From: Fimbriimonadaceae bacterium
GTDB lineage: Bacteria > Armatimonadota > Fimbriimonadia > Fimbriimonadales > Fimbriimonadaceae
DNA: 64,000 nucleotides
Assembly (NCBI GenBank): GCA_019638675.1
Contig: JAHBTE010000001.1
Coordinates: forward strand, 2,388,605-2,452,604
Direction of reading: 5' to 3'
Under the pieces are notes generated by a model. The model was not told the DNA's origin, searched no databases, and was given only the letters and a program-made list of their open reading frames with translations. The translations under genes and the position numbers were made by a program. This document shows, piece after piece, positions 2,021 to 8,546 of this stretch (position 1 is the stretch's first letter; every line of letters begins with the position of its first letter).

Positions 2021-3940
2021 TTAAGCTGCGTAATCGACTCGTCCGGTGTGCGACGACCGATAAGACGGTTGCACCCTCGATTGAGTCTCAGTGGTCGTAC
2101 CAAATTGGCTGAGATGAGCCGCTTGGTTGAGTGATTCCTTCATTGAGTCGCGATGGCTATGGCCTTGTTGACCAGCTTGATTCCCATCGTGGTGCCCCAC
2201 GTTCAGCGAACCTAGGCTAGTTCCTTTGCTCTCAATGGACTGCACAAGTTCTTGTCGGTGAGCTTGAAGCGATTGTCGAACTCCCTCGTCGCTTGCGCGA
2301 AGGTCTACGTCGGCGCGGTGACCGACTTGGCGAACTGCTACCTCAATCGTCCCTAAATCCTGTGGATTTAGTTCGATTTTGATAGAAGATGGTTTCCGAG
2401 CGGCGATCAAATCGCTCACTGCTTCCGCTACTTCGTTTGCATGGTTCATCACGGCTGAATCGGCACGTTCGAGTTGTTCAGCGGTGATTGCCTTTGCACT
2501 CGAAGTCTTTCCGACAAAGGCGTGGGTTGGGACAGGAGTTTCATCGGCATGTTTGCCGTCAACTGTGCTTTCCTGCTTGAAAACTTCGTCGAACTCAATC
2601 TCTGATTCCGTATCGAATTTTATCGATGTAGTTCCTTTTTTGATAGCCGCATCAACTTTGAATTCTGATTCGGATCTGGCTGGTTCGTTCATAGAAACTT
2701 CTTCAATTTCTATTGCTGCTGTACCTGCCTGAGCCTGAGTTGAAATATCAACCTTCTTCGCACCCTTCATGAGCGGTTTGAATGAATCTGAATCTTGCAG
2801 TTCAGCGGTTATCATCGGCTCGCGAACCGATTGAGATGCTGATAACTGCGTACTTGCGGAAATCTGCCCAGCGACAGCTTCCTCGGCTTCTGCCTTGACG
2901 GATTGATCTTTGAGCGAACTCGCGAATTTTGCTGCAAATGCGTTTAATGAATCTACATCGAGTGCAGAACTCAAGTCAATTTTCTGTGCACTTCCAGCAA
3001 CGCCTTCCAATACTTTGGTTTGACCAAAGAATAAGGAGCGGTCGGAGAAGAACTCTTTGCGACTCATGCCTAACCGATCACTAGGGAACATGAGATCACG
3101 GCGACCGCTTCTCGCTTCGCCCTTTTCGACTTCATAGCCGGAATCTTGCTTCGGAATTGGCTTTGACTGGATACCAAATTGTGCCGCCCTGCTCGTGCCC
3201 TGCTTTCGAGATGCCGCTAACAGTTCTGCCTTTGAGCTTAACTGCATGGTCGGGCGAGGAACTGGTGGGGGAATTACTGTGGCATTTGGATTCTTTGAAT
3301 TCTGTCCTTCAATGTCCTTAGCCGAGGAGTTAGAGTCCGAAAGACCAATCGGCAGCTGAGCACCTGAGTTGATTTTTTGCTTGACAAGCGAAAGCACTTC
3401 TTGGACTAAACGAACCTGATCGTTGCTTCCATCCAACTTGACTTCTTTCAGCGCATTTTGGATTTGCAACAGTTCAGCTCGGCTAGAACCAAGATCACTG
3501 GCTCGTTGAGAAACCACCTGTTTAAGAGCGGCTAAATCTTTTTCTCCAAACGGCAGGCCAAATTGAGCCATGCCTTTAATTACGCCTTCTAGGTCAAGTT
3601 CTCCGGTAGAGGAATTATAGTTTTCTGCCAGGACTTGAGCAACATGAGAGGGGCCAATGCCAACCGTCATCATGGAATTGCTATTGAATCCCAATTTCCC
3701 TATTTCGATCGACTGATCGGGCATGGGGCCAGGGAGAAGGTCCAGCGCGATCAACTGGGCAATCAGCCCGTTTGGATCTACTTCCTTATCCTGACCATCA
3801 GAAATTGCAGTATCCAGTGCTTCCAAGAACTCTGTTCTTGTCGTACCTTTTATCTCTTCCGTTGTATTGGAATCGACTCCGCATTTCCCGAGTTGCTGCC
3901 GACCAACCGATGGATCACCCATCAATTGAATCATTTGCAT
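2021..3940 (-). CDS. fliK: Flagellar hook-length control protein FliK
   Basis: A 639-residue protein with a long low-complexity Ser/Ala/Glu/Lys-rich region and one recognisable C-terminal domain at about residues 505-590. The key stretch is SSIKIELNPQDLGTIEVAVR followed by ADVDLRASDEGVRQSLQAHR, the Flg_hook (FliK C-terminal) signature. FliK is exported and acts as a molecular ruler that switches the flagellar export gate from hook to filament substrates. The disordered N-terminal part fits the ruler segment. It is the first gene of this visible flagellar block. The 265 bases upstream are shared with a divergent gene, so the promoter must lie there, but I could not place a convincing -35/-10 pair. 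Confidence 0.9.
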   Translation of the reverse strand: MQMIQLMGDPSVGRQQLGKCGVDSNTTEEIKGTTRTEFLEALDTAISDGQDKEVDPNGLIAQLIALDLLPGPMPDQSIEIGKLGFNSNSMMTVGIGPSHVAQVLAENYNSSTGELDLEGVIKGMAQFGLPFGEKDLAALKQVVSQRASDLGSSRAELLQIQNALKEVKLDGSNDQVRLVQEVLSLVKQKINSGAQLPIGLSDSNSSAKDIEGQNSKNPNATVIPPPVPRPTMQLSSKAELLAASRKQGTSRAAQFGIQSKPIPKQDSGYEVEKGEARSGRRDLMFPSDRLGMSRKEFFSDRSLFFGQTKVLEGVAGSAQKIDLSSALDVDSLNAFAAKFASSLKDQSVKAEAEEAVAGQISASTQLSASQSVREPMITAELQDSDSFKPLMKGAKKVDISTQAQAGTAAIEIEEVSMNEPARSESEFKVDAAIKKGTTSIKFDTESEIEFDEVFKQESTVDGKHADETPVPTHAFVGKTSSAKAITAEQLERADSAVMNHANEVAEAVSDLIAARKPSSIKIELNPQDLGTIEVAVRQVGHRADVDLRASDEGVRQSLQAHRQELVQSIESKGTSLGSLNVGHHDGNQAGQQGHSHRDSMKESLNQAAHLSQFGTTTETQSRVQPSYRSSHTGRVDYAA

Positions 3941-4205: not shown

Positions 4206-7200
4206 ATGCCCAAAAAGAAAGAAGAACTCGAAACCGCGACCGAAAAAGGCCGCGTTGCAAAAAGTAATACTGACTCTACCGAGTCCACTACAAAAAAACG
4301 AAAACGGCGAACAGCAGACGATATCTTAGCGGCTGCGGAACCTGCTACACCTACACCAGCCGAAAAGCCGAAGAGGGCTCCTCGCGTCCGCAAAACTGCG
4401 GCAAAGGCAGAGACAAAGGTTGAAAAGCCAGCTGAAAAGGCAGAAACTCCGGTCAAAGCCGCTCCAGCCAAGCGAGCCCCCGGGACTCGAACTACTGCTA
4501 AGCCTAAAGAATCTGCCACACCAGTAGTCCAGCCGGTTGCAGAATCGGCAAGCACTAAAACTCCGCTTTTCAGAAAACCTGTCGCGAAAACTTTAGCCGA
4601 AGAAGTTGCCGAGGAAAAAGCAAACCCTCAGCCAAAGAAGAGTGCTCCCGCACCAGCCGTAGAAGCAGAAAAACCACGTCGAACTCGGCGAGCAAGCAAG
4701 TCTTCAGAGCCAGAAAAAGCATCAGCCGATGAAGTTTCTGACACAGACGGGATTTTTACCCTGCAATGGCGAAGCAGAACCAGTTCTGAAGAAAAAACTG
4801 AGAAGCCTAACCGACGCGACCGCAAGAAGCAAGAACCTCAACCTGTCGCTGAGGAAGAGACTTACACGCCTCCCACCAAACCAGAACGTATAGAAGAATT
4901 GGGGGATTCGGAAGGACGAGTGTTTATCACTGCTTGGCGAACTGCCGGAAAACCGGCGGCTAAATCAGAGCCAAGTAAATCAGAAGATGAAGCCAACTTA
5001 GCTCCGCGACGGTCACGCAACCGACGACGAAAGGATCGCGACGACAACGACGGTTCAACTGACATCGTAACCGCACCGTTCAGCGAAGACGACCTCATTG
5101 AAGAGTCAGTTGCATTCCGTAAACGAGAGGAAGCTGAACCTGAGGTCAAAGCCCCAGTCCAGGCCCCTCGACCGCCGATCCATCGCAGTGAAGAAGCGGC
5201 TCAAGTTGCGCTTCACCGAGGTCACCCGGCGATCATCAAGAATAAGAGCGTCATTTCTCCGATCTTCTTTTATGCCGATGCTCGGCTTCATAGCCAGCGC
5301 GGCATTGTGATGGAAGAACTCAAGGAAGCCGCTGACCAAGGCATTCAAGTTTTCTCATTCCTGGTTGATGTTCAAGTTGATGTTGAAAGCGCATCGAAAT
5401 CAGTCCAGTTCACACTCGATATTCTTGAGCAAGCGGTGGCAGTTGCGCCAAATATCCAAGTCGTTCCTCGCATCTCGTTTAAGCATGCGAGTGACTGGAT
5501 GTCCAAATTCCCTGATTGTGTTTACCAAACCGCCAAGCGAGAAACTGCCGATCCTAGCGTTTGCGATGACGCTTACTGGGGCGAAGCGGAGAACACCCTC
5601 ATTGCGGTCATTCAAGGATTACAGCAATCGAAGCATAAGGATCGAATCCTGGGGGTTCACTTCGACCAAGAAGAATGGTTCCTAGAAGATGGTGACGGTT
5701 ACGACGTCTCCACCGCCGCGGTCAAAAAATTCCAAGAATGGCTTCGTTTCCGCTACCGAAACGACATCGTTTCACTCAGGGCCTCTTGGTTTGATGGTTC
5801 GGCTCAATTTGACTCCATCCAGATTCCTGACTTCCAAGAAGGGTTGGGTGGCGAAGAGTTTGTTCGCACAGATCGACGCGCCCGCCGATGGGTGGATTAC
5901 CACTTGTTCTGCAGTGATGAAATCGTTGACCGTATTGGTCAAATGTGCTACGCGGCGAAAAAAGCCTCTGACGGTGATTACTTAGTCGGCGCAAGCTACG
6001 GATTCACCTTTGAATGGTCTCACCCATACAGTGGTCATCTCAGTCTCGGCAAGCTCCTGCGATGCCCTGAACTGGATTACGCCGCTGGCCCGAGCAGTTA
6101 TCGTGACCGTGAACCAGGTGGAACCGCCGCGTTCCCATTCCCGGTTGATAGCTTTGCGCTGAACGGCAAGCTCTACATGAGCGAGGATGATTTCCGAACC
6201 CCGATCAGCGGGCGAGAAGAACACCAGGCCCACAACCCGATTATGAAAACCCCGCAGGCGTTGGAAGCCGCCCATTGGCGTGGTATCGGTGGTGCGCTTG
6301 CCCACGAAGGCGGTGTAATCTGGATGGATTCCAACGGTGGTGGTTGGTTGAATTCTCCCGGAATCTGGCAACGTGGCAACGACGTTCACGATCTTCTCAC
6401 CCGCAGCCTGGCGGCGTACAAAACTTCACCCGATGTAGCCTTCTTTGTTGACGAACGGTCACTGACTTACCTCACCGATCCCCGCGCATTTGAAGTGCTG
6501 GTTCAGCAATCTCGCGAATCAATGCTTCGCGCTGGTTTGAGTGTTGGTTTCTATTTGCTTAGCGACCTTGCCCACCGAGAAAATTTCCCCGAAAGCAAGC
6601 TGTACGTTTTCGTTAATGCTTGGGATATTCGACCTGAAGTGCGGAGTGCAATCAAATCCCGGCTCCAACGCAACGGTAAGACCCTTCTCTGGCTCTACAC
6701 AGCTGGTCTATTTGAAGCTGGCCGCGACAGCCTAGAGCGAGTGCGTGAAGTCACCGGAATTGCCTTGCGGCCTCAGCCGTTCAACTGCAAATCTGGAACT
6801 ACCCTTCTCAACACACGTGATGAACTGAGTAGTCAGCTTCCGCAAGAAGAACTTGCCGAAGGTGGACAACTTGAGCCGAGTTACTTTGCAATCCCAGAAG
6901 ATGCATCTGTACTCGGAGAATACACAGATACTGGTTTGCCCAGCTTTGTCGTTCGGCACTTTGTCGGCGATCAACCCGACGAAAAATGGACAAGCGTATT
7001 CCTGGGCGAACCAATTGTCAGTCCTGGATTGTTCCGAGCCCTGGCTCATCAAGCGGGTGCCCACGTTTGGAGTTTTGATAACGACCTGGTTCACGCAAAT
7101 GCTCCGTTCGTTACGATTCACTGTTCTGGCACGGGTAGCCGCACGTTGATGCTCCCCGACAATTGGGCCGCGTACCACTTGGATGACAAAGAGTACATGC

Positions 7201-7649
7201 CGGTCGAAAACAGCTCGATCAAATTCCGAGCGGTCGATGGCTCCACTCACACGTTCCTCGTCGGAACAATGGGTGACATTCAATCTATCCTCAAGGCCGA
7301 CAAACAAGAACTCATCACCGTTACTGAGCCGATTGTCCGCGCAGAAAACACCCTTCATTGGGATCGTGTGAACTTTGATGTTCAAGTCATGAAGCTTGAC
7401 GAATGGGTGGAAGATAACTGGTCCGAGGAACATGCGGATGACCTTCTGTTGCGTCCTTCCATGATCGAAAACGACCTCGGCGAAGAACTCACCACCGAAA
7501 TCGAACCAGAGCGCGATGACCGCGGGCGTTCAACTGGTCGCCGACGACAACGCCGACGACGCGGCAACGATAAAGAATCACGCCGTGGCCCGCGAGACCA
7601 AGAGTTTGGAGAAACCGGAGTCAGCATCGTCTTCCGGAAACGAGACTAA
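4206..7649 (+). CDS. Large GH42-like TIM-barrel protein with charged N- and C-terminal tails
   Basis: The 1147-residue protein has three parts. Residues 1 to about 330 are Lys/Ala/Glu/Pro-rich, resembling a histone H1 or RNase E tail, and have no signal peptide. Residues about 335-1060 resemble glycoside hydrolase family 42 beta-galactosidases: a barrel start (IFFYADARLHSQRGIV), GVHFDQEEWF at about 484-493 where family 42 has its acid/base Glu, and a later domain like the GH42 trimerisation domain (VFVNAWDIRPEVRSAIKSRL). The last 60 residues are acidic, then Arg-rich (GRRRQRRRRG). A short motif recurs at about 182-191 (GIFTLQWRSR), 236-246 (GRVFITAWRTA) and the extreme C-terminus (GVSIVFRKRD). 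Substrate and activity are unknown. It lies 3 bases before era, so the two are translationally linked. Confidence 0.65.
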   Translation: MPKKKEELETATEKGRVAKSNTDSTESTTKKRKRRTADDILAAAEPATPTPAEKPKRAPRVRKTAAKAETKVEKPAEKAETPVKAAPAKRAPGTRTTAKPKESATPVVQPVAESASTKTPLFRKPVAKTLAEEVAEEKANPQPKKSAPAPAVEAEKPRRTRRASKSSEPEKASADEVSDTDGIFTLQWRSRTSSEEKTEKPNRRDRKKQEPQPVAEEETYTPPTKPERIEELGDSEGRVFITAWRTAGKPAAKSEPSKSEDEANLAPRRSRNRRRKDRDDNDGSTDIVTAPFSEDDLIEESVAFRKREEAEPEVKAPVQAPRPPIHRSEEAAQVALHRGHPAIIKNKSVISPIFFYADARLHSQRGIVMEELKEAADQGIQVFSFLVDVQVDVESASKSVQFTLDILEQAVAVAPNIQVVPRISFKHASDWMSKFPDCVYQTAKRETADPSVCDDAYWGEAENTLIAVIQGLQQSKHKDRILGVHFDQEEWFLEDGDGYDVSTAAVKKFQEWLRFRYRNDIVSLRASWFDGSAQFDSIQIPDFQEGLGGEEFVRTDRRARRWVDYHLFCSDEIVDRIGQMCYAAKKASDGDYLVGASYGFTFEWSHPYSGHLSLGKLLRCPELDYAAGPSSYRDREPGGTAAFPFPVDSFALNGKLYMSEDDFRTPISGREEHQAHNPIMKTPQALEAAHWRGIGGALAHEGGVIWMDSNGGGWLNSPGIWQRGNDVHDLLTRSLAAYKTSPDVAFFVDERSLTYLTDPRAFEVLVQQSRESMLRAGLSVGFYLLSDLAHRENFPESKLYVFVNAWDIRPEVRSAIKSRLQRNGKTLLWLYTAGLFEAGRDSLERVREVTGIALRPQPFNCKSGTTLLNTRDELSSQLPQEELAEGGQLEPSYFAIPEDASVLGEYTDTGLPSFVVRHFVGDQPDEKWTSVFLGEPIVSPGLFRALAHQAGAHVWSFDNDLVHANAPFVTIHCSGTGSRTLMLPDNWAAYHLDDKEYMPVENSSIKFRAVDGSTHTFLVGTMGDIQSILKADKQELITVTEPIVRAENTLHWDRVNFDVQVMKLDEWVEDNWSEEHADDLLLRPSMIENDLGEELTTEIEPERDDRGRSTGRRRQRRRRGNDKESRRGPRDQEFGETGVSIVFRKRD

Positions 7650-7652
7650 TTC

Positions 7653-8546
7653 ATGAAGGCCGGAGTCGTTGCGGTAATTGGCAAGCCAAATGTTGGCAAA
7701 AGCACTTTGATCAACACGCTTGTTGGTCACAAGGTAAGCATTGTCAGCGACAAGCCCCAAACCACGCGCAAGCGTGTTTTGGGGATAGCCACAACCGATG
7801 AATACCAGATGGTCTTCGTCGATACTCCTGGCATCCACCGTCCCAAACACAAATTAGGGGCGGCCCTCAATGAAACCGCTAAGCAATCGCTCCACGGAAT
7901 TGATGTCTTGCTCATCATGGTGGATTGTTCGCGTATGCCGAGCCAGGAAGATAAAAACGTTGCCCAAATTCTGAGTGAAGCTGGACTTCTGAAATCGGAT
8001 TCAAATGTCATTCTTTGCCTCAACAAAATGGACAAGTTGAAGGCGGAAGATGTTGAACGCAACTACGAAGCCTACACCGAGTTGTTCAAAACTGAAAATA
8101 CAATCATGACCTCTCTCACCAAGAGTCAAAACGTTGATATTCTCAGCGGCAAACTGTTCAACTTGCTTCCTGAAAACCCAACTTTCTATCCCGACGATCT
8201 GTATACCGATCAGCCGATGGCGTTCATGGCGGCGGAAATTGTTCGTGAAAAGGCACTCAACCTAACCCATAAGGAAGTTCCCCATTCACTGGCAACGTTC
8301 TGCGAAGAATGGGAGCAAGAAGAAGGTCGGATTTTTATGCGGATCGTGCTACTTACCGAGCGCGACAGCCAAAAAGCGATTCTGCTTGGTCACAAAGGCG
8401 ACATGATTAAGAAGATTGGCACTGCGGCTCGCCCAGAAATCGAAGAAATGGTTGATCAAAAAATCTATTTGGAACTGTTTGTCAAGGTTCGAGCGGACTG
8501 GCGGCAATCGCCGCGCTGGCTCCGAGAATTGGACTACTTACAATAA
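7653..8546 (+). CDS. era: GTPase Era
   Basis: A 297-residue Era, the usual family length. It has the GTPase motifs GKPNVGKST (about 10-18), the switch region KPQTTRKRVLG, DTPGIHRPKH (about 57-66) and NKMD (about 125-128). A C-terminal KH domain follows, with GHKGDMIKKIGTAAR and the typical ending LELFVKVRADWR. Era binds the 3' end of 16S rRNA and drives 30S subunit maturation. The start ATG lies 3 bases after the stop of the GH42-like gene, so both are probably read from one message. A strong hairpin terminator follows at once. No rRNA-processing neighbour such as ybeY or recO is present here. Confidence 0.97.
   Translation: MKAGVVAVIGKPNVGKSTLINTLVGHKVSIVSDKPQTTRKRVLGIATTDEYQMVFVDTPGIHRPKHKLGAALNETAKQSLHGIDVLLIMVDCSRMPSQEDKNVAQILSEAGLLKSDSNVILCLNKMDKLKAEDVERNYEAYTELFKTENTIMTSLTKSQNVDILSGKLFNLLPENPTFYPDDLYTDQPMAFMAAEIVREKALNLTHKEVPHSLATFCEEWEQEEGRIFMRIVLLTERDSQKAILLGHKGDMIKKIGTAARPEIEEMVDQKIYLELFVKVRADWRQSPRWLRELDYLQ

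Follow-up and report, generated by a model that had tools for sequence, protein, structure and literature searches.

The gene at 4206-7649 on the plus strand of the window (the whole 64,000-nucleotide stretch of DNA that was analysed) encodes a protein with the core of a sugar hydrolase, two long charged tails and the gene era immediately behind it, which raises the question of whether such a protein is an intracellular enzyme or something built upon one. The reading favoured here, to which a probability of about 0.45 may be given, is that of a cytoplasmic protein derived from a glycosidase, with charged disordered tails, serving mainly as a platform for binding or assembly. The evidence comes from the fold of the core, the composition of the tails, their conservation across the phylum and the fate of the probable catalytic residues.

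Gene layout and fold of the core

The open reading frame, supported by orthologues, gives a protein of 1147 amino acids, in which no signal peptide was seen by inspection. It belongs to a genome of 2.85 Mb, and its core is 98% identical to that of Fimbriimonadaceae bacterium ACE_ARM8. The protein is made up of an N-terminal tail of 338 residues, a core of about 727 residues with three domains and a C-terminal tail of 82 residues, all the features given below being on the plus strand unless otherwise stated. A gap of 3 bases separates the gene from era (7653-8546, recognised by Pfam matches to MMR_HSR1 and KH_2), which is probably cotranscribed with it as the following gene. The sequence-only reading of this locus had described the frame, the lack of a signal peptide, the 3-base gap, an N-terminal region of some 330 residues and an Arg-rich C-terminal tail, and all of these were confirmed. 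No family model for the protein was found in NCBIfam, and literature searches returned nothing on it.

The core begins with a TIM-barrel-like domain (residues ~352-736, 5259-6413), followed by a domain B which, according to the model and to hhalign, is like the GH42 trimerisation domain (residues 740-883, 6423-6854), and by a C-terminal domain of mostly beta secondary structure (6855-7289). The match to the Pfam GH42 family (PF02449) is weak, 17.8 bits with the whole protein and 18.3 with the core alone, below the cut-off of 21, although some orthologues exceed it (40.4 bits in G166 and 22.0 in G154). When an alignment of 39 orthologues was compared by hhalign with genuine GH42 proteins of the phylum, barrel and domain B were matched with a probability of 96.6 and an E-value of 6e-10. 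The full-core AlphaFold model, built from nine sequences, was poor (pLDDT 52), and the top Foldseek match was GH42 (E 1.5e-13); a barrel-only model was better (pTM 0.64) and again ranked GH42 first, with Z scores of 14-16 that are common to GH42, GH35 and beta-amylase barrels. The GH42-like barrel proposed from the sequence is a probable fold, while its Pfam support stayed under the threshold. The core is called GH42-like and not filed as GH42, since the canonical Asn-Glu pair of residues is missing. Within the home class, that is, the class of the source genome (Fimbriimonadia in GTDB), the mean identity of domain B (0.56) is higher than that of the barrel (0.46), which suggests an important surface there.

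Composition and motifs of the tails

The N-terminal tail (residues 1-338, 4206-5219, its boundary taken from the core profile) is of low complexity, with mixed blocks of K/R and D/E whose segregation gives a z of 2.3. It contains 39 K, 48 A, 34 R, 36 P and 45 E, the acidic residues roughly balancing the basic ones. The C-terminal tail (residues 1066-1147, 7401-7646, delimited by profile and composition) holds 16 R among its 82 residues, including the cluster GRRRQRRRRG at 7536-7565. To judge by composition, both tails would be disordered.

A short aromatic-Arg motif recurs along these tails. Two copies with Trp, GIFTLQWRSR (residues 182-191, 4749-4778) and GRVFITAWRTA (residues 237-247, 4914-4946), had been placed in the C-terminal tail by the sequence-only reading; the repetition is real, but both copies lie in the N-terminal tail, while the related GVSIVFRKRD was correctly located at the very end (residues 1138-1147, 7617-7646). 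Moreover, that inventory was incomplete, having overlooked two weaker copies with Phe, both in the N-terminal tail: PLFRKP (residues ~120-125, 4563-4580), also present in the closest relative, L003, and ESVAFRKRE (residues 300-308, 5103-5129).

The statistics of the tails were determined on 79 tailed orthologues, 59 from the home class and 20 from other classes, by shuffling each tail. The pattern hydrophobic-x-hydrophobic-x-[WF]R occurred 117 times in the 59 home-class tail sets against 3.7 after shuffling (maximum 10 in 200 shuffles), counts which are not independent, since the proteins are related, although the position and flanks of the motif differ widely among genera. A [WF]R pair was found within the last 14 residues of 58 of these 59 proteins, the remaining one ending at a contig edge. 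In the 20 other-class proteins, the same pattern was met once against 0.6 expected, the [WF]R motif being absent and blocks of the RRRRRGGRGRG type standing in its place. All 79 proteins, however, have 7 or more K/R somewhere within 15 consecutive residues. When patterns were counted with no prior choice, the RRRR type ranked first across the phylum and V.FR.R/FRKR in the home class. The charges are also segregated into blocks more than in shuffled tails, with median z values of 2.7 (N-tail) and 4.7 (C-tail) in the home class, and of 7.1 and 6.5, respectively, in the other classes.

A profile of the motif run over 10 genomes gave clear matches in the tailed protein only, although slightly different forms could escape such a search, and the DNA pattern of the C-terminal motif showed no excess over the reversed control in 4 genomes. 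The notion that this motif is a by-product of the ribosome-binding site of era is unlikely, because members from families f2 and f4, which have no era downstream, keep it. A further stretch, D.L..PS, found just after the core (here ADDLLLRPS, window ~7437-7460), was observed in 26 of the 59 home-class members with none expected.

Distribution, secreted homologues and neighbouring genes

Tailed orthologues, which the sequence-only reading had suggested searching for, were readily found: in 107 of 113 home-class genomes, 87 of the 88 good ones, and essentially as one copy. Relatives of the GH42-like protein occur in 167 of 205 Armatimonadota genomes, full-length tailed forms being present in families f1-f5, f9-f13 and f17. 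The claim that the layout is unlike that of ordinary GH42 enzymes has been borne out, and the layout is conserved throughout Armatimonadota. A further group of relatives (L197-L212) is tail-less, with mostly signal-like N-termini. In a tree of the cores, 39 from tailed and 16 from secreted proteins, the two groups are separated with 100/99 support, the tailed part roughly following taxonomy. Since tail-less secreted forms are a clade apart and no tailed orthologue was seen to be secreted, the sequence-only reading stands unrefuted on this count.

As regards the neighbourhood, 82 of the 83 genomes from families f1, f3 and f5 have era as the next gene downstream, in the same orientation. The only exception is L019 (G020:C384), where era is downstream but inverted. 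It was not directly downstream in any of the 12 f2/f4 genomes that could be assessed, nor in any of the 20 other-class genomes, which rules out a universal linkage. Within f1, f3 and f5 the coupling is old, yet it is lineage-specific and not a constant feature of the tailed protein. Consequently, the adjacency from which a role near the ribosome had been surmised is real, but its value as evidence is weak. No sugar-transport or other sugar gene was noticed as a constant neighbour in this comparison, in which a minority of the adjacent genes were identified.

Other observations were made on nearby and related genes. In many Fimbriimonadaceae, a fliK-like gene (window 2021-3940, minus strand) is found divergently upstream and has related neighbours at its side. 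Two ftsZ genes scoring over the cut-off (L213-L242) were found in each of the 12 f1/f3/f5 genomes tested, those of the source genome being at G000:C1:2492715 and 237191, against one in family f2 and in five other-class genomes; the set of families with two ftsZ genes coincides with the era-linked set.

The probable catalytic pair and its loss

In the GH42 beta-galactosidase BiBga42A, the catalytic residues are Glu160 and Glu318 (PMC10688820). Glu490 (5673-5675), the probable acid/base, and Glu660 (6183-6185), the probable nucleophile within LYMSEDD, probably correspond to these two, an assignment based on alignment and on moderate-confidence models (pLDDT 52 and 59). By hhalign, the canonical Glu column is aligned with about residue 489 rather than 490. 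The canonical Asn-Glu of the acid/base is replaced by (R/Q)(G/E)EW, Asn being found in the expected column in 1 of the 79 tailed orthologues. Whether the barrel keeps both GH42 residues had been left to structure prediction by the sequence-only reading; by alignment, the source protein does have the probable nucleophile, Glu660, whereas the canonical Asn-Glu is missing and Glu490 stands in (R)GEW, and the active-site geometry is not readable in the barrel model, where the pLDDT is below 50 from core residue 291 on.

Both residues are kept in the 20 other-class orthologues and in the 16 secreted homologues, without exception. Within the home class, Glu490 is kept in 85 of 98 members and missing in 13, and Glu660 is kept in 87 and missing in 11. 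Nine members lack both and group with L095, which lacks Glu490 only, in a ten-genome clade with a support of 97, although fast evolution could group its members artificially. Single losses outside this clade were found in L014, in L009 and L010, and in L256/L260. On a FastTree tree built with columns 490 and 660 masked, parsimony requires at least four changes at 490 and at least three at 660. All ten members of the clade retain the tails, the C-terminal motif and the downstream era, and the otherwise invariant R635, K655, D662, R692 and D708 are unchanged in them. Since the pair was lost while tails, motif and era persisted, the probable catalytic residues would be dispensable in part of the home class, unlike the tails. 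Nevertheless, an enzyme role is likely to be selected in most lineages, because both residues are present in most home-class orthologues and in every other-class one read.

Interpretation

The retention of the arms while the probable cutting residues were lost in several lineages means that the protein is probably a platform and not only a digestive enzyme. On this basis, the protein would be a cytoplasmic branch of a glycosidase-like family, with a GH42-like three-domain fold and, in Armatimonadota, long disordered charged tails. The core may form a trimer, by analogy with GH42, and RNA or some other polyanion might be bound by the Arg blocks. The repeated aromatic-Arg motif would dock either a partner protein or the core, and such docking could lead to multivalent assemblies, much as the C-terminal tail of RNase E does. 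The conserved pocket of the barrel may bind a sugar ligand, and in most lineages the barrel may still be an active enzyme. A stronger version, in which the former glycosidase is the multivalent scaffold of an Armatimonadota RNA-protein assembly, taking the structural role of the RNase E tail, and in which catalysis could be dispensed with and was lost on several occasions, is considered unlikely.

The main rival to the platform is an active intracellular glycosidase acting on imported oligosaccharides or glycoconjugates, the tails only localising or solubilising it and the Glu-less clade being a side branch. The GH42-like fold, the strong conservation of the pocket-like residues and the presence of the Glu pair in most tailed and all secreted proteins argue for it; however, no steady association with sugar genes was noticed in the neighbourhoods compared, where a minority of the genes were identified, the pair was repeatedly lost with no loss of gene, tails or motif, and a selected docking motif is more than solubility needs. 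This explanation is judged rather unlikely. The invariance of the pocket-like residues in the Glu-less clade, together with the tight era coupling in three families, would also suit a sensor or regulator whose barrel binds sugar uncut and whose tails and motif signal to a partner linked to RNA or to the ribosome, for instance Era. Against such a role stand the Glu pair kept by most members and the absence of the era linkage outside f1, f3 and f5, and it is quite improbable. Finally, the Lys/Ala/Pro-rich N-terminal tail of the source species recalls a histone H1-type tail and hence a nucleoid protein binding DNA, but the element conserved phylum-wide is the Arg clusters (GGRG-like blocks in many other-class members) and not Lys/Ala repeats, and sequence cannot tell DNA binding from RNA binding; this role of the protein is very improbable.

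With the platform as the preferred reading, a widely conserved Armatimonadota gene with no NCBIfam model and a sub-threshold Pfam match is seen to combine a glycosidase fold with long tails carrying a selected motif. Secreted enzyme, tailed enzyme and tailed protein lacking the Glu pair represent a natural series for studying the passage from enzyme to scaffold, and the conserved motif could be used as bait to find a new assembly in a phylum that has been little studied.

Comparison with known systems

A close comparison is with the secreted tail-less homologues, which share with the tailed proteins the core, the GEW and EDD sites and invariant R, K, D and R residues. They differ in their mostly signal-like N-termini, their lack of tails and the constant presence of both Glu residues, while Trp458 and Gln857 are invariant in the tailed clade only. 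The GH42 beta-galactosidases of clan GH-A (4uzs, 8ibr BiBga42A, 1kwg) would have their barrel, their flavodoxin-like domain B and their beta domain in the same order, and share the position of the probable nucleophile at the end of strand 7. In contrast to these, the tailed protein falls below the Pfam cut-off, has (R)GE for Asn-Glu at the end of strand 4, bears two long tails and has lost the Glu pair in some lineages.

The C-terminal conserved peptide of FtsZ also has an acidic-aliphatic-Pro-aromatic-Arg flavour, which DLPIPTFRSR resembles. In the genomes examined, FtsZ ends in a DIPAFLR type of sequence, where Phe and Arg are separated by one residue, whereas the C-terminal motif of the tailed protein has no Pro. 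Mimicry of the FtsZ tail ([DE]-hydrophobic-P-x-F-L-R) was thus set aside as a resemblance only, the tailed protein having a direct [WF]R.

The RNase E/G of the genomes examined is a separate protein without a long tail, which rules it out there as the carrier of such tails; in one congener, it is read in two frames with an in-frame TGA (L134/L135, G006:C1:2739232-2740475), through either a sequencing error or a pseudogene. The tailed protein itself gave no Pfam match to the RNase E/G catalytic domain, nor did an RNA-binding domain come to light in it. In Caulobacter, RNase E carries charge blocks rich in Arg, and its C-terminal EKPRRGWWRR recruits PNPase into condensates, the BR-bodies (PMC10412687). 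The RNase E-like character ascribed to the tails by the sequence-only reading is upheld to the extent that both proteins have charge blocks rich in Arg and, at the C-terminus, an aromatic-Arg motif. The tailed protein differs in having no ribonuclease domain and in a motif which is repeated and of another sequence. It is an analogy and not a homology: in each case, an enzyme or enzyme-like domain would be extended by disordered, Arg-rich charge blocks ending in an aromatic-Arg motif.
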